NCBI GenBank assembly: GCA_938048695.1
Contig: CALIUO010000008.1
Location: 1 to 56,018 of the forward strand
Origin: an uncultured SAR86 cluster bacterium
Lineage (GTDB): Bacteria; Pseudomonadota; Gammaproteobacteria; Magnimaribacterales; Magnimaribacteraceae
DNA length: 56,018 nt
Direction: 5' to 3'
Shown: positions 5,687 to 46,737 of the stretch, piece after piece
How the letters are laid out: the number at the start of each line of letters is the position of its first letter
How positions within the stretch are numbered: position 1 is the stretch's first letter
Position numbers and translations under genes: made by a program
Notes under the pieces: generated by a model
The model's input: only the letters and a program-made list of their open reading frames with translations
What the model was told of the DNA's origin: nothing
Databases searched by the model: none

Positions 5687-6199
5687 TTATTTGATTTGAT
5701 TTCTTAATTTTTCAAGCTTTCCTTTAATGCTGTAATCTGTAACTTCGTCACCGCATTTGATAGAAAAACCACCTATTAAACTTTTATCTATTACTTGTTC
5801 CACTATTAATGAATCTCCATATCTTCCTTTTAGAGAGTCTGTAACTTTTTTTAATTGCTCATCTGTTAAATCGAAAGCAGACGTAATTAAAACCTCGCTA
5901 GAGCCTTTTGTTCCCGACAACAGCTTTCTGTATGCTTTGGATATATGTGGAAGCAGAGAAATTCTTTTAGACTCACCCAACACTTTAATGAAGTTGCTGG
6001 TTTTGCTTTCAATTTGGCCTTCAAATAAGGATAGGAACACTTCAGTCTTTTCCTTATAAGCTAGCTTAGGAGAATCTATTAGCTGCTGCACTTTGGGTGT
6101 CTCAAGGGCGAGCTCAAGCTGACCAAGATCCTTTTCCCACCCTTCAGAATGATCATAGATCGCTTGGGCGTATGGTCTTGCTATCGTCTCGAAATTCAA
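5687..6199 (-). CDS. atpH: F1Fo ATP synthase delta subunit
   Basis: The 170-residue product has the delta/OSCP profile: an N-terminal six-helix domain beginning near [16 protein letters not shown] (family motif ARPYA) and a C-terminal domain ending with [20 protein letters not shown] (the GG(I/F)-I-K-GD motif). Delta ties the b-subunit stator to the top of F1. The start appears to be TTG, with an AGGAG ribosome-binding site about 8 bases upstream, just inside the 2-base gap region after atpF; no ATG fits the family N-terminus. Confidence 0.95.
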
Positions 6200-31947: not shown

Positions 31948-33096
31948 ATGGCTTATATTAAAAAAGTTTTCACAAAGTTAATCTTTGTAATGCCTGTTCT
32001 TTTTTCATCTCTAGTTTTCTCCGAAAGCTCAGACTACAACATGCCAGTTGGCGTGACAGAAGTAAGTGAGAGTATTTTTGAGTTGCACATGGTTATCTTT
32101 TGGATCTGTGTTGTCATTGGGATAATTGTTTTCTCCATAATGTTCTGGTCTCTCTGGAAGTACAGAAAGTCTAAAGGGGCTGTTGCCGCAGACTTTGATG
32201 ATAATTTCTGGCTAGAAATTGGATGGACTGTTGCCGCAACCCTAGTGCTTGTTTGGATGGCCGTGCCTTCTACACAAGTTATGGTTGAGGCTTATGATGA
32301 TGCTGAAGGTGAGATAAATATCCTAATTACTGGACACCAATGGAAATGGCACTATGAATACCTAGAAGACGAAGTAGGATTTTTCAGCAACCTATCTACA
32401 AGCCAAGAACAAATCGATGGAGAAGTTCCAAAAGGAGAGTTTTATTTAAGAGAAGTGGATGAACCCTTGGTAATCCCTACAAATACTAGGGTAAGATTTT
32501 TAATCACTGGAAATGATGTTATTCATTCTTGGTGGGTTCCTGACTTTGCCGTCAAACAGGACGCTATTCCTGGCTTCATTAATACTGCTTGGACCAATGT
32601 TCCAGAACCAGGAATTTTTAGAGGAGCATGTACAGAACTTTGTGGAATTAAACATGCCTTTATGCCCGTTGTTGTCAGGGCAGTCGAAAGAGAAGAGTTC
32701 GATGCTTTCATAGCTGAAAAAGTTGCTTTGGCTGAGGAAGAGAGACTTTTGACTTCAAAGGTTTGGACAAAAGAAGAATTAATGGCAAGAGGTGAAGGGT
32801 TTTATGCAACTAACTGTGCGGCCTGCCATCAAGCCGGAGGGCAGGGAATTCCTCCAGTATTTCCTGCGCTAGTGGGAAGTCAAATTGCTTTGTCTGATAG
32901 TGCTAGACATATTGAAATCTTAATGGAAGGTGTTCAAGGGTCTGCAATGGCTGCATTTGGTGACTCTTACAGCGAAGTTGATATAGCATCAGTCATAACA
33001 TACACAAGGCAAGCTTGGTCTAACGGAGAAAATGGCGATGGAGTAATAGTCACGCCTCAGGATATTGTTGCATACAAAAATAGAATTGATTTATAA
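31948..33096 (+). CDS. coxB: Cytochrome c oxidase subunit II with fused cytochrome c domain
   Basis: The 382-residue protein has a signal/anchor at the start, two membrane helices (about 50-75 and 95-115), and a CuA domain with Cys228, Cys232, His236 and Met239 in CTELCGIKHAFM; the other His is in VIHSWWVP. A C-terminal class I cytochrome c domain follows, with the heme motif CAACH at residues 290-294 and a likely Met ligand near MAAFG. CuA takes electrons from cytochrome c and passes them to CoxA. The c-fused form is known in other gammaproteobacteria such as Pseudomonas. Periplasmic side. Confidence 0.97.
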   Translation: MAYIKKVFTKLIFVMPVLFSSLVFSESSDYNMPVGVTEVSESIFELHMVIFWICVVIGIIVFSIMFWSLWKYRKSKGAVAADFDDNFWLEIGWTVAATLVLVWMAVPSTQVMVEAYDDAEGEINILITGHQWKWHYEYLEDEVGFFSNLSTSQEQIDGEVPKGEFYLREVDEPLVIPTNTRVRFLITGNDVIHSWWVPDFAVKQDAIPGFINTAWTNVPEPGIFRGACTELCGIKHAFMPVVVRAVEREEFDAFIAEKVALAEEERLLTSKVWTKEELMARGEGFYATNCAACHQAGGQGIPPVFPALVGSQIALSDSARHIEILMEGVQGSAMAAFGDSYSEVDIASVITYTRQAWSNGENGDGVIVTPQDIVAYKNRIDL

Positions 33097-33108
33097 AGGA
33101 AGTAAAAA

Positions 33109-34695
33109 ATGAGTACAGTAGTAGAATCACACGATCACGGACATCACGGACCAGCGAAAGGGCTTTCCAGATGGCTCTTTACGACAAACCATAAAGATAT
33201 AGGTACTTTATACCTTTGGTTCAGTTTCATTATGCTCTTTATAGGTGGTGCAATGGCGATGGTCATAAGAGCCGAGCTTTTTCAACCAGGACTTCAAATA
33301 GTTCAACCTGAATTTTTCAATCAAATGACAACTAATCATGGCTTGATTATGGTATTCGGTGTCATCATGCCGGCATTTGTAGGTTTGGCCAATTGGATGC
33401 TTCCAATGCAAATAGGTGCTCCAGATATGGCCTTACCAAGGTTAAATAATTTAAGCTTTTGGTTACTACCAATGGCATTTGGTATTTTAATTTCGACTTT
33501 ATTTATGCCTGAAGGTGGACCTAATTTCGGTTGGACCTTTTACGCACCTCTTTCTACAACATATGCACCATCTACAGTGAACTTCTTTATTTTCTCCGTT
33601 CATGTAATGGGTGTTTCCTCAATTCTCGGATCAATTAATATTATTACAACTATCTTCAATATGAGAGCTCCAGGCATGACATTAATGAAAATGCCTCTTT
33701 TTGTATGGAGTTGGTTGATCACTGCTTATCTTCTTATCGCGGTTATGCCCGTTTTAGCCGGCGTTGTGACTATGATGCTCATGGACATAAATTTTGGTAC
33801 CAGCTTCTTTAATGCTGCGGGTGGCGGTGATCCAGTATTGTTCCAACACGTATTTTGGTTTTTCGGACATCCTGAGGTTTATATCATGATTTTACCTGCC
33901 TTCGGAATTGTCTCTCATATCATTGAGACCTTTTCCAGAAAGCCAATTTTTGGTTACTCTTCTATGGTCTATGCTATGGCTTCGATCGCGATTTTATCTT
34001 TTGTAGTTTGGGCTCATCATATGTTTACTGTAGGTATGCCTTTGGCAGGAGAATTATTCTTCATGTACTCAACAATGTTGATTGCGATACCTACCGGAGT
34101 AAAAGTTTTCAACTGGGTAGCAACAATGTTTAGGGGCTCAATAACTTTCGAGACTCCAATGCTATTTTCAATAGCTTTTGTAGCTTTATTTACGATTGGA
34201 GGCTTCTCAGGTTTAATGCTTGCTATTGTTCCTGCTGACTTCCAGTACCATGATACTTATTTTGTTGTTGCTCACTTTCATTATGTATTAGTTCCAGGAG
34301 CACTTTTTGGAATAATAGCTGGAGCCTATTATTGGCTGCCTAAGTGGACTGGCAACATGTACGACGAGACACTAGGTAAGCTACATTTTTGGTTAACATT
34401 CATATCAGTGAATGTAACTTTCTTCCCTATGCATTTTGTTGGCCTTGCGGGTATGCCAAGAAGATATCCGGACTATGCTCTTCAATTCGCAGACTTCAAT
34501 GCATTAATAAGTGTTGGAGCTTTTATGTTTGGATTAACCCAGCTTCTATTCTTGTTCATAGTTATAAAGACAATAAGGTCTGGTAAACAAGCAAAACCAG
34601 AAGTGTGGGAAGGGGCTGGAGATCTAGGCTTAGAGTGGACTTTAAGTTCTCCTCCGCCTTATCACTCATTTACTGTTCAACCTCAAGTAAAATAG
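33109..34695 (+). CDS. coxA: Cytochrome c oxidase subunit I (A1-type)
   Basis: This 528-residue protein has twelve or so membrane helices. It shows heme a ligands (NHGLIMVFG), the CuB/tyrosine motif FGHPEVYIMILPAFG with the Glu of A1-type enzymes, WAHHMFTVG, the K-channel region IAIPTGVKVFNW and the heme a/a3 helix VVAHFHYVL. The start SHDHGHHG adds four His near the N-terminus. It reduces O2 to water and pumps protons at the inner membrane. coxB is 12 bases upstream. Confidence 0.98.
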   Translation: MSTVVESHDHGHHGPAKGLSRWLFTTNHKDIGTLYLWFSFIMLFIGGAMAMVIRAELFQPGLQIVQPEFFNQMTTNHGLIMVFGVIMPAFVGLANWMLPMQIGAPDMALPRLNNLSFWLLPMAFGILISTLFMPEGGPNFGWTFYAPLSTTYAPSTVNFFIFSVHVMGVSSILGSINIITTIFNMRAPGMTLMKMPLFVWSWLITAYLLIAVMPVLAGVVTMMLMDINFGTSFFNAAGGGDPVLFQHVFWFFGHPEVYIMILPAFGIVSHIIETFSRKPIFGYSSMVYAMASIAILSFVVWAHHMFTVGMPLAGELFFMYSTMLIAIPTGVKVFNWVATMFRGSITFETPMLFSIAFVALFTIGGFSGLMLAIVPADFQYHDTYFVVAHFHYVLVPGALFGIIAGAYYWLPKWTGNMYDETLGKLHFWLTFISVNVTFFPMHFVGLAGMPRRYPDYALQFADFNALISVGAFMFGLTQLLFLFIVIKTIRSGKQAKPEVWEGAGDLGLEWTLSSPPPYHSFTVQPQVK

Positions 34696-34696
34696 T

Positions 34697-35245
34697 TTGG
34701 AAGCACAAAAAACATTAAGAAACCTAGTCGGCATTGTAGTCGGAATGTTCGCCTTTGGATGGTTACTAGTGCCTATGTATGATGTTTTTTGCGAGATTAC
34801 TGGACTAAACGGCAAAGTAACTGGCCCTAGCGCTTTGAGTGAAGAATCACTAGCTATCACAGAACAAAGAGAACTTCTTGTACAGTTTATGACCCATAAT
34901 AATGAGTCAATGCCTTGGTATTTTGATTCTGAAAGATCCCAAATGAGAGTCATAACAGGAAACCAATACGAAGCTACTTTCGTATTTCATAATACGACCA
35001 GTAAAGAAATGGTAGGGCAGGTTATACCAAGTGTTTCTCCGGGGAGAGGGGCAGAATATTTTCACAAAACAGAATGCTTCTGTTTTGAGAGACAGGTTCT
35101 GGCTGCAGGTGAAAGAATCGAATTACCTGTCAGATTCATAATTGACCCAGCCTTACCTAAAGAAATAGGCTCTTTGAGCTTAGGTTATACTTTGTTCGAT
35201 ATAACAGACAGAGTACAGCCAGAAAAAGAATTAGCTAATTTATAA
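34697..35245 (+). CDS. cox11: Cytochrome oxidase copper-insertion protein Cox11/CtaG
   Basis: The 182-residue protein has one N-terminal membrane helix (about residues 8-30), the motif PMYDVFCEITGLNGK and the copper-binding CFCF in KTECFCFERQ near residue 133. It inserts copper into the CuB site of CoxA. The start is TTG, a single base after the coxA stop, so it is probably translated by coupling to coxA. In Pseudomonas-type loci the order coxB-coxA-cox11-coxC is the same. Confidence 0.96.
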   Translation: MEAQKTLRNLVGIVVGMFAFGWLLVPMYDVFCEITGLNGKVTGPSALSEESLAITEQRELLVQFMTHNNESMPWYFDSERSQMRVITGNQYEATFVFHNTTSKEMVGQVIPSVSPGRGAEYFHKTECFCFERQVLAAGERIELPVRFIIDPALPKEIGSLSLGYTLFDITDRVQPEKELANL

Positions 35246-35256
35246 AAGGGGAGAAA

Positions 35257-36171
35257 ATGTCACAACAAGCCTATTACGTGCCAGAATCAAGCAAATTGCC
35301 ATTTGCTATGGCGATCACTTTATTGGTATTCATCATTGGAGCTGCCAACACTGTCATAGATCTGGGTAAAGACACTAACTCATATATGGTTTTGATTGCA
35401 TCACTAATAATGATGTGGGTCACAATGTATTTTTGGTTCAAACAAGTCATCCAAGAGAATCATGCTGGATTAAATAATCCAATGCTTAAAGATTCTTATG
35501 TTTATGGCATGGCATGGTTTATTTTTTCTGAAGTCATGTTCTTCTTCGCTTTCTTCTTTGCATTAGCTTACATAAGAAACTTTGCTGTTCCCTGGCTGGG
35601 AGGAGAGGGTGAAAAAGGTTTAGCAAACATGCTATGGCCAGGATTCGAAGCCAGTTGGCCATTGATGATTACGCCTGACCAAGCAGTATTTGCGGGTCCT
35701 GAAAAAGATATGTCTCTCGCTACAGCCTATGCCTCTGGAGGCTTAGGTGGAGTTTTAGGTTGGCTTCCTTTATGGAATACAGTGCTCTTATTAACTTCGA
35801 GTTTAACAGTCCACATAGCGCATTTAGGGTTAAAAAACGGTAACAGAAAACAATTTAATCTTTGGCTGGGTGCCACTTTAGTTCTAGGTTATGCTTTCGT
35901 TGTAGTCCAGGGTATCGAATATTACGAGGCGTATACCCACTATGGCTTGACCCTAAACACAGGCATTTATGGAACTACATTCTTCATGCTGACAGGTTTT
36001 CACGGTTTCCATGTCTGCTTAGGAGCAATTATTCTTACAATTATGCTTTTCAGAAGCCTTAAAGGACATTTCAGCGCCGATGATCACTTCGGTTTTGAAG
36101 CAGGATCATGGTATTGGCACTTCGTAGATGTCGTTTGGGTCTGCTTAGTAGCTTTTGTGTACGTTATGTAA
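35257..36171 (+). CDS. coxC: Cytochrome c oxidase subunit III
   Basis: At 304 residues this has the subunit III profile: a two-helix N-terminal part, then the five-helix core with MAWFIFSEVMFFFAFFFAL (the Glu of the family) and a C-terminal GFHGFHVCLGAIIL and SWYWHFVDVVWVCLVAFVYV. It stabilises CoxA and its proton uptake. An AAAAGGGGAG ribosome-binding stretch precedes the ATG. It is the last structural oxidase gene of the locus. Confidence 0.97.
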   Translation: MSQQAYYVPESSKLPFAMAITLLVFIIGAANTVIDLGKDTNSYMVLIASLIMMWVTMYFWFKQVIQENHAGLNNPMLKDSYVYGMAWFIFSEVMFFFAFFFALAYIRNFAVPWLGGEGEKGLANMLWPGFEASWPLMITPDQAVFAGPEKDMSLATAYASGGLGGVLGWLPLWNTVLLLTSSLTVHIAHLGLKNGNRKQFNLWLGATLVLGYAFVVVQGIEYYEAYTHYGLTLNTGIYGTTFFMLTGFHGFHVCLGAIILTIMLFRSLKGHFSADDHFGFEAGSWYWHFVDVVWVCLVAFVYVM

Positions 36172-40531: not shown

Positions 40532-42751
40532 ATGAAAGTTTACTTTTATGCGCTCATGGCGATGAGCTTAATAAGTACGCACATATATTCTGATGAGCCT
40601 GCTGATTCTACATCTAATGAAGCAGAAGAAGTTGTTGTTACATCATCAATATTAAATCCTTCAAGGATAATAAACCCATTATATGTAATTGACGGGGATG
40701 AAATTCAAGATAACGCCACTACTTCTTTAGGAGAAGCTGTAGACAGTTATCTAGGAGTTTCCATAGCGGACTTTGGTGCTGCGGTAGGACAACCAATCAT
40801 AAGAGGAATGTCAGGCCCTAGAGTTAAAGTCCTCAAAAATGGTTTGGTCAATAGGGATGTATCTGGATTAGGTGCCGATCATTTGAACGATATAGATCTT
40901 AATGACCTTGAGCAAGTTGAGATTATTAAAGGACCTTCTTCGCTTCTCTATGCTAATGGAACAAGCGGAGGAATAATTAATGTAGTTGATAACTGTATAG
41001 CTCCAGAAGATTTTACTAAGCAAGAATTCATAGCAGGTCTCGAAACTCAGTCTGTAAATGATGGAGACTCACAATACTTCAACTTCAAAGATAATTTAGG
41101 TGGATTCAACGTAAACGTCGGATATAAAAAGTCAGAATTTGGAAATTTTGATATACCTGATGGTGCAATCATCCATGAAGAAGGTCACGATGATCATGAC
41201 GACCATGAAGGTGAAGAAGAGCTTTCTTATGTAGAAAACTCAGATTTAGAAATAGAATCTACTAAGTTCGGTATTTCTAGATCAGGAGAATGGGGTTATT
41301 TAGGTGTTTCTTTAGATAACCATGAAAGCATGTATGGTATTCCATACCATGGAGAACATGCTGATGAACACGGCGATGATGATCATGGAGATGACGATCA
41401 CGATGACCATGGAGATGATGATCACGACGATAATGGAGATGAACACGAAGGCGAGAGGATTTTCTCTACTACTGATCAAGAGTCTTTTACTATCAAAGGA
41501 CAATACAACGTCATGGGTAATTTACTTAAGTCGGTAACTTACAACTATAGAGATACTGATTATGAGTTAGTTGAAGCACACGCTGAAGAAGAAGGTCATG
41601 ACGATCATGATGATCACGGAGATGAACATGAAGAACATGCACCTACAGTTTTTGCTAATGACGCGACAGAATACGGAGCAATATTTGATTTATCAAATGA
41701 TAACTTTATTCAAAAGATAGCATTCAATTATGTGGATGAAGATTCATCTATTGTGGGTGAAGAGTCATTCATGAATCCCGCCAACAATGAAGAGTTCACA
41801 TTGGGATACTTTGTTAGTGCTGATTTAGATGCCTTTTATTTAGATGCAGGTTTCAGAATAGATCAAATAGAAAGAACGGGTAGCGTCACAGATGATGATC
41901 ATGGAGATATTGATTACTACAATATAGATGATGACACTAATAGCTTTGCCCTCACTATTGGAAGGGATCTGAGTGATTCACTTGATGTGAATATAGGTTT
42001 TGCTAGTGTGGAAAGACTTCCTTCAGTTATTGAGCTATTCATGAACGGGCCTCATATGGCAACAGGAAGGCTTGAAACAGGGAACCCAAATCTAAAAAGT
42101 GAGACTTCAAATAACTTTGATATAACTTTTAATTATGACAATGGTGATTTCTATGCAATGGCTAGTTTCTATGTCAACGACGTTGATAACTACATAACAT
42201 TGCAAGACATGCTTGATGATCACGACGATCACGATGATCATGACGACCACGGAGATGATCATGACGATCATGACAAAGAGTTTGCTCACTTAATAAAGTC
42301 AAACTATGTTCAAGAAGATGCTGAATTCAGAGGTTATGAGTTAGAGATTGGAAGAACTTTTAGCTTAGGATCAGGAGACTTGACACTTTCTTTTGGAAGG
42401 GACGAGGTTGATGCAGAGTTTTCTGATGGACACAACGTACCAAGAATCAATCCAGCAAGGAATATCTATTCATTGTCTTATGTTGAGAGTGATTGGGTAT
42501 TTAAACTAACTCTCAAGGATGTTGAAAGTCAAAATGACATTGGTGAAGGTGAAACAAAAACTGATTCATATCAGATGTTAGATACTAGGCTGACTAGAAC
42601 ATTTAACGTAGGTGAAGCAAGTGAGTTAAAACTTTCAATATTTGGTACTAACTTATTAGACGAAGTAGCAAGAAACCACTCTTCATTTGTTAAAAATGAA
42701 TTGCCTTTAGCTGGAAGGAATTACGGAGCTAAGTTTAGTTACAGGTTCTAA
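40532..42751 (+). CDS. TonB-dependent outer-membrane receptor with His/Asp-rich loops (ZnuD-like, metal uptake candidate)
   Basis: At 739 residues it is a full receptor: signal peptide to about residue 20, a possible TonB box VVVTSS (34-39), plug domain (about 45-150) with QPIIRGMSGPRVKVL and SSLLYANGTSGGIINVV, then a beta-barrel ending GAKFSYRF with a C-terminal Phe. Four segments (residues about 215-230, 273-307, 350-370 and 563-582) are made almost only of His, Asp, Gly and Glu, probably extracellular loops. ZnuD-type receptors use such loops to bind zinc; here the place behind cox11, sco and a His/Cys protein makes copper equally likely. An AGGAG site precedes the start. Confidence 0.88.
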   Translation: MKVYFYALMAMSLISTHIYSDEPADSTSNEAEEVVVTSSILNPSRIINPLYVIDGDEIQDNATTSLGEAVDSYLGVSIADFGAAVGQPIIRGMSGPRVKVLKNGLVNRDVSGLGADHLNDIDLNDLEQVEIIKGPSSLLYANGTSGGIINVVDNCIAPEDFTKQEFIAGLETQSVNDGDSQYFNFKDNLGGFNVNVGYKKSEFGNFDIPDGAIIHEEGHDDHDDHEGEEELSYVENSDLEIESTKFGISRSGEWGYLGVSLDNHESMYGIPYHGEHADEHGDDDHGDDDHDDHGDDDHDDNGDEHEGERIFSTTDQESFTIKGQYNVMGNLLKSVTYNYRDTDYELVEAHAEEEGHDDHDDHGDEHEEHAPTVFANDATEYGAIFDLSNDNFIQKIAFNYVDEDSSIVGEESFMNPANNEEFTLGYFVSADLDAFYLDAGFRIDQIERTGSVTDDDHGDIDYYNIDDDTNSFALTIGRDLSDSLDVNIGFASVERLPSVIELFMNGPHMATGRLETGNPNLKSETSNNFDITFNYDNGDFYAMASFYVNDVDNYITLQDMLDDHDDHDDHDDHGDDHDDHDKEFAHLIKSNYVQEDAEFRGYELEIGRTFSLGSGDLTLSFGRDEVDAEFSDGHNVPRINPARNIYSLSYVESDWVFKLTLKDVESQNDIGEGETKTDSYQMLDTRLTRTFNVGEASELKLSIFGTNLLDEVARNHSSFVKNELPLAGRNYGAKFSYRF
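41174..42276 (+). repeat. Four clusters of degenerate His/Asp codon repeats inside the receptor gene
   Basis: Within the receptor gene the clusters 41174-41220, 41348-41450, 41579-41640 and 42218-42276 consist of short tandem runs of CAY and GAY codons with some GGA. The units vary, so the protein repeats are kept while the DNA units have drifted. Such runs can slip during replication, so loop length may vary between strains. There is no spacer structure as in CRISPR. Confidence 0.85.
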
Positions 42752-44982: not shown

Positions 44983-45261
44983 TTAAAGAAGTGCTCTACT
45001 TTGCCTTTTTAGAGTTTTTAAAATTTCCTCAACCTTGTCATCAAAATCCTGCTCATCACTTAATGCTTCTCTAACACATTCTTTCATATGCTTTTTTAAT
45101 ATTCTCCCTTCAACGCTTGTAATAGCATTTCTAACCGCCTTGATTTGATTAAGTATATCAATGCAATATTTGTCATTATCAATCATGTTAGCAATTCCAC
45201 GAATCTGCCCCTCAATTCTGTTAAGACTAGGAATTTCTTCTTTGTGGCATGGATTTTTCAT
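44983..45261 (-). CDS. CsoR/RcnR-family metal-sensing repressor
   Basis: The 92-residue all-helical protein has LNRIEGQIRGIANMIDNDKYCID and IKAVRNAI, typical of this family. Cys33, His58 and Cys62 fit the Cu(I) CsoR ligand spacing (25, then 4 residues); Cys5 and His6 at the N-terminus could add an RcnR-like ligand. On that basis copper is the best guess, but Ni, Co or sulfur sensors share the fold. Its start overlaps the MerT-like gene by 4 bases (ATGA), so it is the last gene of the metal operon and probably regulates it. Confidence 0.88.
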   Translation of the reverse strand: MKNPCHKEEIPSLNRIEGQIRGIANMIDNDKYCIDILNQIKAVRNAITSVEGRILKKHMKECVREALSDEQDFDDKVEEILKTLKRQSRALL

Positions 45262-45623
45262 ATGAATATAGGAATTATATACGTAAATATTGTAGCAAAA
45301 ATAAACAATACAACTGAAATATAATAAACATATCTTGATCGTTTTCTAGTTTGCATGCACAACCTTCCTAACTCAGGATCTGCGGGGCAAGGCATATGAT
45401 AGGTTTTATAGTTGGCATAACCGGCTATTATCACCATGACAAGTGCAAAAATAGTTATTTGTGTCTTGTAATGAGACAAGGTAATAAGAAAAGGTAAATG
45501 CGTAAGTAATGAAGCAAAAGAAGCGCCAGCGCCTAAAGCAACAAACATTGCAGGTAGGGCGCAACATATCAGCGTTGATGAAGAAGCAAACAGTGATAGA
45601 AAGTTTGCCGATTTATCTTCCAT
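45258..45623 (-). CDS. MerT-like inner-membrane metal transport protein
   Basis: The 121-residue protein has three predicted helices (about 8-40, 53-71 and 98-120). Helix 1 carries adjacent Cys20-Cys21 in STLICCALPAMFVALGAG, the same place as the Hg-binding pair of MerT, and a second pair Cys79 and Cys89 lies in the loop MPCPADPELGRLCMQ, again as in MerT. MerT moves Hg(II) from MerP to the cytoplasm; here there is no merA or merR, so the metal may be Cu or another soft metal. Its ATG overlaps the HMA gene stop by one base. Confidence 0.8.
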   Translation of the reverse strand: MEDKSANFLSLFASSSTLICCALPAMFVALGAGASFASLLTHLPFLITLSHYKTQITIFALVMVIIAGYANYKTYHMPCPADPELGRLCMQTRKRSRYVYYISVVLFIFATIFTYIIPIFI

Positions 45624-46027
45624 TAATTTATATTAATAATTTTTAAGCCAGTAGCGTTCTGGCCATTAGCTAGAATTTTTTGCTCTATTTCCTTATATTC
45701 AATAGCTTTATCTTTTGAGTAAGCAATTAAAACTTTTCCTTTGCTAAGGTCCACATCAATTTTTTTTACGTTTCTATCTTTCTTGAACGTCTTCTCTATA
45801 CCTTGGGCGCAAAAATCACACACCATACCAATTACACTAACTACCGCAATTTGGCAGTCTTCAAGATCTTTAAGAAAGTTTTGGTACCTATCAGGATCTA
45901 CATCAAGATCTTTTCCATCAATCAGTTCTCCGTGAACATGACCTTTATGGTCATGATTCATATCATCTGTAGCAAACAAAGAATGAGAAATCATAAAACA
46001 AAGGCCAATAATCAAAAATTTATTCAT
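45623..46027 (-). CDS. Exported heavy-metal-associated (HMA) domain protein
   Basis: The 134-residue protein has a signal peptide cut near residue 19 (SHSLFA), a His-rich segment (His25, 27, 30, 32) in MNHDHKGHVHGE, and an HMA fold with the metal motif GMVCDFCAQGIEKTF (Cys70, Cys73). Such domains bind Cu(I), Hg(II) or similar ions. It plays the MerP-like or metal-chaperone part in the periplasm. An AGGAG site lies upstream, and the outer-membrane-like gene is 8 bases before it. Confidence 0.85.
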   Translation of the reverse strand: MNKFLIIGLCFMISHSLFATDDMNHDHKGHVHGELIDGKDLDVDPDRYQNFLKDLEDCQIAVVSVIGMVCDFCAQGIEKTFKKDRNVKKIDVDLSKGKVLIAYSKDKAIEYKEIEQKILANGQNATGLKIININ

Positions 46028-46035
46028 ATCATCTC

Positions 46036-46638
46036 CTAAAATCTATACATCAAATGTGAGTCCCATTCAGTCCTGTCGTTATATCCAAACTCAATTAAAA
46101 AATTTCCTTTGAAAAATTTAAGTACGGGAAAAGTTGACCAATTGTTCAATAGGTCATTTTTTTTGGATTTCACCATAATCCAAGTGTGAAAGTCTCCGTA
46201 CTCGCCCAAATAGGGTGCTAAACCAATCTGCAAGTATTGATCTTCAAAATCTATAATCTCATTCTCTACCTTTTTGTAACCAAAACCAGCAAACCATCGT
46301 CTAGTTTCCCAATCTCCATGAAGACCATAAAATTTATTCTCAATCCCTTTGGAGCTTACTCCAGATTGAAAATATAGGTTTCTTTGGGAATATTGAGTGT
46401 TCTTTCTATTCAAAAGGTAAGTGAGCCTGAAATACGAATAGTTGGAGCTCAAAAAATCATCTTTTACAGCCTCTAAACCTAATGAGTACTTATAAGTTGG
46501 TGAATAATGTAGATATAGAGAATCACGCATGTTATCTGAGTGACTCATTAGTGTTGAGCCTCCTGAATAAGAGATAGGTCTTGCTTCTGCTACACTGCTT
46601 ACAGCAAGAATAAGAAATAATAGTTTCTTTATACCCAT
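46036..46638 (-). CDS. Small predicted outer-membrane protein heading the metal operon
   Basis: From the ATG at 46638 the protein is 200 residues with a signal peptide (MGIKKLLFLILAVSSVAEA). The rest alternates aromatic and polar residues (LYLHYSPTYKY, FRLTYLLN, RWFAGFGYKK, LIEFGYNDR) and ends LMYRF, as expected of a small beta-barrel with a C-terminal Phe. I recognise no family. It is first in the operon with HMA, MerT-like and CsoR genes. An upstream TTG frame to 46713 is open but would add 25 residues before the signal sequence, so I rejected it. Confidence 0.65.
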   Translation of the reverse strand: MGIKKLLFLILAVSSVAEARPISYSGGSTLMSHSDNMRDSLYLHYSPTYKYSLGLEAVKDDFLSSNYSYFRLTYLLNRKNTQYSQRNLYFQSGVSSKGIENKFYGLHGDWETRRWFAGFGYKKVENEIIDFEDQYLQIGLAPYLGEYGDFHTWIMVKSKKNDLLNNWSTFPVLKFFKGNFLIEFGYNDRTEWDSHLMYRF

Positions 46639-46647
46639 GGGGGGTAT
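46631..46647. promoter_or_regulatory. CsoR-like operator over the start of the metal operon
   Basis: ATACCCATGGGGGGTAT has inverted arms ATACCC (46631-46636) and GGGTAT (46642-46647), a G/C-tract flanked by AT sequences as in CsoR/RcnR operators. It spans the ATG (46636-46638) of the outer-membrane-like gene and the bases just upstream. On the minus strand TTTAAA and AATATA, 16 bases apart, lie before it, so a repressor here would cover the start point. There is no Shine-Dalgarno, hinting at a leaderless mRNA. Confidence 0.6.
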
Positions 46648-46737
46648 ATTAACACAAACTACATAGTTTAAAAGTATTCTAATAAAAGAGAGAACACTTC
46701 CTTTTTTATGCAAGGAACCTTATTCTCATTCTTGAGG

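Follow-up and report, generated by a model that had tools for sequence, protein, structure and literature searches.

A four-gene operon of SAR86 and other marine bacteria, with a predicted CsoR operator over its first start codon, may encode an ATPase-free copper relay

The window, a 56,018-nucleotide stretch that makes up contig 8 of a SAR86 cluster genome (1.33 Mb, 85% complete), encodes on its minus strand, in this order, a small outer-membrane protein (OMP), an HMA protein, a MerT-like membrane protein and a CsoR-family repressor (Table 1). All four open reading frames were found with the spacings described in an earlier sequence-only reading (+8, -1 and -4 bases), which confirms that reading, and the four genes form one operon. 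The gene set, its order, the predicted operator, the register of this operator with the first gene and the fact that no CopA was found in nearly all carriers can be read in the sequences. We consider with moderate confidence that the cassette is a copper-induced detoxification operon, whose products would form an outward relay that replaces CopA.

Table 1. Features of the cassette and its surroundings in the window.
Feature	Position	Strand	Remarks
OMP	46036-46638	-	200 aa, ATG at 46638; small predicted outer-membrane beta-barrel
HMA protein	45623-46027	-	134 aa; signal-like N-terminus, periplasmic; His-rich stretch, motif GMVCDFC
MerT-like membrane protein	45258-45623	-	121 aa; Cys pairs 20/21, 79/89
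CsoR-family copper-type repressor	44983-45261	-	92 aa; Y32-C33-H58-C62
Predicted CsoR operator	46630-46648		Inverted repeat TATACCC-N5-GGGTATA spanning the OMP start codon
-10-like hexamer TAATAT	46646-46651	-	Column make-up of 77 aligned promoters
ZnuD-like TonB-dependent receptor	40532-42751	+	His/Asp-rich loops; 2.2 kb from the cassette; recurrent neighbour, non-core

The metal-binding residues pointed out in the sequence-only reading are all in place (C70/C73 of HMA, C20/C21 and C79/C89 of the MerT-like protein, C33-H58-C62 of CsoR), and the motif residues of these three proteins are invariant in 15-row alignments that include the window. CsoR scores 97 bits against PF02583 (cut-off 22.8), keeps its Cu(I) ligand set C33, H58 and C62 in 15/15 rows, and has the copper CsoRs 4adz and 4m1p as the best-matching solved structures of its profile. 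The HMA protein scores 34.1 bits against PF00403 (cut-off 24.8), with an invariant CxxC (C70/C73), and its profile finds its nearest matches in the domains of copper ATPases and in CopZ, with a weaker one in MerP; against the MerP model TIGR02052 it reaches 19.2 bits, far from the cut-off of 92.55. Copper, which had been put forward with a question mark, appears to be the likeliest metal. The MerT-like protein aligns over residues 12-120 with PF02411 at 29.6 bits (E 7.8e-07), below the cut-off of 32.9, and scores 25.6 bits against NF010314, also below the cut-off (150). MerT proteins are marked by a cysteine pair in helix 1 and another one in the following loop, and the MerT-like protein shows both pairs in 42 aligned rows, where C20, C21 and C79 are invariant and C89 is retained in at least 90%. 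Its predicted structure is of middling confidence (pLDDT 77), and its profile matched none of the solved structures up to E 0.1. No NCBIfam model matched OMP, HMA, MerT-like or CsoR at cut-off.

The replacement of MerR by CsoR was borne out by the PF02583 match, CsoR taking the place of merR as regulator of the set. The finding of merA in the same genome had been named as evidence that would make this set an ordinary mer part; merA is over the curated cut-off in 0/61 genomes of the SAR86 order, the source genome, 85% complete, being counted among them. Weaker matches to the merA model occur in 61/61 genomes, and the three examined, of about 340 bits, lack the C-terminal CC and are presumably dihydrolipoamide dehydrogenases. 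Linked merA or merR genes were not seen in the close-relative loci examined. The mercury reading was rejected on the lack of merA over the cut-off and on MerT and MerP scores below theirs. A MerT/MerP pair left behind by a decayed mercury operon would fit the nearly full-length Pfam MerT match with its low E value, but it is opposed by these same scores, by the lack of merA over the cut-off in the 61 genomes, and by the fact that OMP and CsoR are kept in most of the best 80 of 217 loci described below, rather than decaying; we regard it as very improbable.

The MerT-like gene is present in 15 of the 61 SAR86-order genomes, the source included, and in all 15 the order is OMP-HMA-MerT-like-CsoR, with gaps of -4 to 14 bases. 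A sixteenth cassette genome (G001) shows only OMP and HMA, since a contig ends there. Comparing the 15 loci over 3.3 kb each, typA and ABM, which flank the cassette, are common only to the window and two near relatives. A search of 84,980 species genomes with the OMP alignment yielded 217 confirmed loci, the named loci being the best 80 of them; in these best 80 of 217, HMA accompanies OMP in 80, the MerT-like gene in 78 and CsoR in 76. Three of the four loci without CsoR (L028, L044 and L058) reach a contig end first, and the fourth, L092, has 2.6 kb of N-free sequence remaining with no CsoR match, yet the operator is present. In L094, CsoR is reduced to a remnant and the operator is degraded. 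In L042 (6809-7280), a CsoR fragment lies right after the MerT gene and a full-length CsoR follows about 110 bases further, perhaps as a result of a partial duplication. The 15/15 genomes and the linkage counts in the best 80 of 217 loci lead us to reject OMP as a chance neighbour and agree with the idea of one envelope-spanning unit that has a constant OMP partner.

Record titles of the best 80 of 217 loci include SAR86, SAR92, OM182, Porticoccaceae, K189A and the alphaproteobacterial PS1/IMCC14465. In a tree of 77 four-gene sets, made by a quick method with no bootstrap and with some MAG titles that may be wrong, five alphaproteobacterial-titled rows fall among gammaproteobacterial ones, which requires at least two changes. 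A phage or plasmid cargo was discarded, as no OMP relative was found in viral contigs or plasmids at the sensitivities used.

The minus strand at the OMP start reads TATACCCCCCATGGGTATA, where two 7-base arms flank a 5-base spacer. It is the sole such repeat in the window, and by composition a genome of this kind should hold about 0.005 of them by chance. By its sequence, it is a putative CsoR operator of the G/C-tract inverted-repeat type, located at the promoter that it would regulate. This repeat was absent from the sequence-only reading. With 6-base arms, the pattern occurs in 23/61 SAR86-order genomes and the reversed-pattern control in 0/61; the 23 genomes comprise the 15 cassettes, the cut cassette of G001, G022 and six others with the pattern inside coding frames. 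The hits in G031, G020, G015 (two), G011, G008 and G030 and a second one in G005 were rejected as operators because they lie inside long open frames. In G022, which does not carry the cassette, the same operator (L140:2462-4099) covers the start of a DUF4396 gene that is followed by a CsoR gene, named by eye, and a cation-efflux gene.

The operator stands at the OMP start in 15/15 cassette loci of the SAR86-order set, and the exact TACCC-N5-GGGTA does so in 83 of 90 further loci, a set in which some genomes occur twice (L097-L100 duplicate either the window or other loci) and which omits L090, cut at the start. The seven exceptions are L051 and L092, with a 4-base spacer, L060, with an N, the degraded L094, and L104, L105 and L107, which have neither operator nor CsoR in the 1.5 kb covered at each locus. 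Among the best 80 of 217 loci, 77 have the operator with a 4- or 5-base spacer, and in 72 of the 80 an in-frame start codon (ATG in 71, GTG in 1) occupies a fixed place inside it, which explains why OMP mostly begins with MGI or MGM. Five loci that belong to a single clade (L050, L056, L057, L072 and L074, near 5990-6040) have the operator ATG out of frame with OMP after a run of nine T, and thus another OMP start must serve there; an ATG in the OMP frame lies about 30 bases downstream. Since this is repeated in five assemblies, it is perhaps no sequencing error.

In 77 aligned promoters, numbered with the A of ATG as +1, T-13 is found in 70, A-12 in 77 and A-9 in 77, the T at -8 being imposed by the search pattern. 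With the -10-like TAATAT in this place, transcription would begin around the A of the OMP ATG, suggesting a leaderless message. Shine-Dalgarno-like words are found for OMP in 7/90 loci, for HMA in 69/86, for the MerT-like gene in 6/88 and for CsoR in 29/84, and the MerT-like and CsoR genes often overlap the preceding gene. According to a study on Bradyrhizobium liaoningense (PMC5057107), the putative CsoR box of its csoR-cueA genes is TATACCCCTACCGGGTATA, whose arms and spacing are identical to those of the window repeat. The same study describes a CsoR that likewise has C33, H58 and C62, a csoR mRNA that begins on the A of the ATG and appears to be leaderless, and a csoR-cueA divergon that is induced by copper, less by zinc, and also by cadmium (PMC5057107).

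A P1B ATPase (TIGR01525) is over the cut-off in 1/80 cassette genomes from the best 80 of 217 loci (1/44 in one batch and 0/36 in the other) and in 296/369 genomes of the class sample, a comparison of raw counts that ignores kinship, genome size and MAG gaps. In the only positive of the 80, IMCC14465, the ATPase carries a CPC motif and its gene adjoins an efflux-like one, as judged by eye. Eleven genomes of the class sample are OMP-positive, and the ATPase is present in 0/11 (Fisher 9.6e-09, ignoring kinship); small genomes of the class have it in some cases (G117, G168 and G172) and lack it in others. As for seven distant OMP carriers, it was found in G145, whose OMP was detected only with a wider profile, and in G805, and not in G830, G103, G189, G302 and G344. 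Within the SAR86 order only 1/61 genomes has a P1B ATPase over the cut-off, and the source genome (85% complete) shows no match. The cassette was not seen in 45/61 of these genomes, 44 of which also show no ATPase. Thus, with 60/61 genomes without P1B ATPase over the cut-off and only 16 with a cassette, a CopA-less genome need not carry the cassette. Regarding other pumps, CusA-type RND proteins over the cut-off were found in 0/61 SAR86-order genomes, and RND pump matches below it in 57/61.

In the mechanism that we propose, CsoR would sit on the inverted repeat, which overlaps the -10 element at its end and takes in both the transcription start and the OMP start codon, until cytosolic Cu(I) binds to C33-H58-C62 and the repressor releases the DNA, allowing the synthesis of the leaderless message. 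The MerT-like protein would then use its two cysteine pairs to move Cu(I) across the inner membrane and pass it on to HMA in the periplasm, which would rely on its GMVCDFC motif and His-rich stretch to hand Cu(I) over to the outer-membrane barrel for release. In this way, the whole set would do the job of CopA. We infer here the identity of the metal, the outward direction, the order of the hand-over and the leaderless start. There is no ATPase or antiporter gene in the four-gene operon, and therefore the flow would follow ligand affinity or some other coupling.

MerT is an importer, and the sequence-only reading had considered import possible for the cassette as well: the barrel would admit copper, HMA would carry it and the MerT-like protein would bring it in for copper enzymes. 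The resemblance of the parts to the Hg(II) importers MerT and MerP, a haem-copper oxidase gene cluster in the window (31948-36171, named by eye) and the TonB receptors that recur near the cassette speak in its favour. On the other hand, import requires CsoR to act in a non-standard way. Copper excess relieves repression by CsoR, and without a cytosolic detoxifying enzyme an importer switched on under such conditions would have no evident use. The P1B exporter is also rare among the carriers, and in L171, the locus of G145, a distant relative, the genes run from OEP through multicopper oxidase, CusF, OMP and HMA to MerT-like. Given that the operator matches the putative CsoR box of a copper-induced operon (PMC5057107) and that a P1B ATPase occurs in only 1/80 genomes, detoxification or efflux is more likely, and import appears unlikely.

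The cargo, sensed by CsoR, could be a metal other than copper, whether thiophilic or divalent (Zn, Cd, Ag or Hg). ZnuD-like receptors were found near 10/96 loci of a neighbour survey in which some genomes were counted twice, and also in the window, where the receptor is below the cut-off of the ZnuD model. In G344, zinc-uptake-type genes lie beside a relative of the cassette, which were named by eye, ZnuA being confirmed. These neighbours, the operator shared with the CsoR-cation-efflux operon of G022 and the induction by Zn and Cd of the B. liaoningense operon with the same box (PMC5057107) would fit another metal. However, the C-H-C set of CsoR and its nearest solved relatives are those of copper sensors, L171 has CusF and multicopper oxidase, and merA over the cut-off is lacking in the 61 genomes; hence a cargo other than copper seems rather improbable.

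The outer-membrane assignment of the 200-residue protein was supported by its AlphaFold model (pLDDT 86), a predicted barrel of 12 strands preceded by a signal-like helix and with a C-terminal Phe. Positions assigned to the inside of the barrel are more conserved (entropy 0.66 vs 1.38 bits), and 0/2000 random parity choices were as extreme. OMP matches no Pfam or NCBIfam family, and its profile gave nothing credible among solved structures up to E 1. The top Foldseek match is the KdgM porin (E 4.6e-05, TM 0.53), among many unrelated barrels, and as VIA-align also lists many of these, the structural naming of the barrel was abandoned and no family was assigned. KdgM/NanC and COG4313 outer-membrane channels have barrel topology in common with OMP, but identities are of 6-15%, unrelated barrels do equally well or better by VIA-align and no sequence relation was shown.

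MerT-like proteins were found in 46/369 class genomes. In 28 loci from 28 of these genomes the HMA gene adjoins the MerT-like gene in all cases, and the small OMP is present in 8/28; two more of the 46 (G000 and G036) have cassettes that were already counted. A second predicted barrel family, whose barrel nature was judged by eye from the sequence, is present in 18 of the other 20 loci, and therefore non-mer MerT-HMA pairs seem to come regularly with a barrel of the outer membrane. At these sister loci (L181-L200, e.g., L181:168-1869), the barrel-like protein has about 280 aa, shows AHDPIFG close to its N-terminus and lacks a Pfam name; HMA and MerT-like genes follow, a thioredoxin-like protein is often encoded as well, and some loci have a MerR-type regulator. 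Profile comparison of the small OMP with the sister-locus barrel gave no significant relation (probability 0.8%). Within 1.5 kb of sequence, CsoR was found in 0/20 of the loci without OMP, and a MerR-type regulator lies near 4/20. Two of these regulators end in C-x6-CPII, which we take to be reminiscent of CueR, and the Zn- and Cu-type NCBIfam models score alike on them, below cut-off.

An operon without an energy-coupling protein, and an HMA protein with a signal-like N-terminus and a His-rich stretch, would also suit a periplasmic role: Cu(I) would be captured at the inner membrane by HMA together with the MerT-like protein, and the barrel, induced by copper, would serve envelope repair or permeability. 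The conserved cysteine pairs in helix 1 and loop of the MerT-like protein suggest passage instead, and the conservation of the inward positions of OMP and the second-family barrels beside MerT-HMA in 18/20 loci also speak against a periplasmic role, so that we find it improbable and keep the outward relay as the preferred reading.

Other genes recur around the cassette. The commonest extra neighbour is a PepSY-TM-like membrane protein, below the Pfam cut-off, on either side in 18/96 loci (e.g., L045:4110-4772). A MerC-family protein is near the cassette in 7/96 loci (among them L045:1970-2404, L082:3518-3913 and L038:4125-4535), and L045 shows a MerC (PF03203 over cut-off)-OMP-HMA-MerT-CsoR-PepSY run. 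Just upstream of OMP, relatives without a linked CsoR encode small Cys/His-rich proteins that look exported (L134:4713-5057, L135:3477-3872 and L169:4433-4828) and resemble CopL/DUF2946, with no Pfam match.

The closest comparison among mercury systems is Tn501-type merT/merP, which shares with the cassette a small membrane protein with cysteine pairs in helix 1 and loop and a periplasmic HMA neighbour; the cassette differs in having CsoR instead of MerR, the OMP partner, a His-rich N-terminus of HMA and no merA over the cut-off. The csoR-cueA and cso operons of B. liaoningense and Mycobacterium tuberculosis have a C-H-C CsoR like that of the cassette, but their target is a P1B ATPase, whereas in the cassette it would be OMP-HMA-MerT, with the operator lying across the first gene's start codon. 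In CusCFBA and Pco/Cop, copper travels through the periplasm and outer membrane, as proposed for the cassette, and L171 has genes for OEP, CusF and multicopper oxidase next to it; nevertheless, the cassette has no RND pump or TolC-type channel, no clear PcoB/CopB match was found in it, and its predicted 12-strand barrel is a separate one. The NF045683 model (MerT/CopZ fusion-like heavy metal transport selenoprotein) also brings MerT-like and HMA domains together, but in the cassette they are separate genes that reach 20 of 375 bits, with Cys and not selenocysteine at the motif. The cassette had been presented as a candidate for an undescribed system, and this stands for the set itself, for which no description was found in the literature searched; it does not stand for the parts, each of which belongs to or resembles a known kind.

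More tentatively, the cassette might represent a third exit for copper, distinct from both P1B ATPases and RND pumps, in the form of an ATPase-free outward relay of MerT-like protein, HMA and barrel, and possibly one case of a general MerT-HMA-barrel conduit of which mer is the barrel-less case. Such an exit would be spread among surface-ocean bacteria without CopA, with a sister form that uses another barrel in other Gammaproteobacteria. Surface seawater abounds in bacteria of the SAR86, SAR92, OM182 and PS1 groups. If the copper reading is true, the cassette would be the answer of its carriers, among CopA-less marine bacteria, to the problem of copper disposal, and proteins that look like mercury transporters would become copper genes. 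The cassette opens MerT-type transport, in both its direction and its energetics, to direct testing, and its predicted operator would illustrate cleanly how a repressor's binding site can dictate the first codons of the gene under its control.
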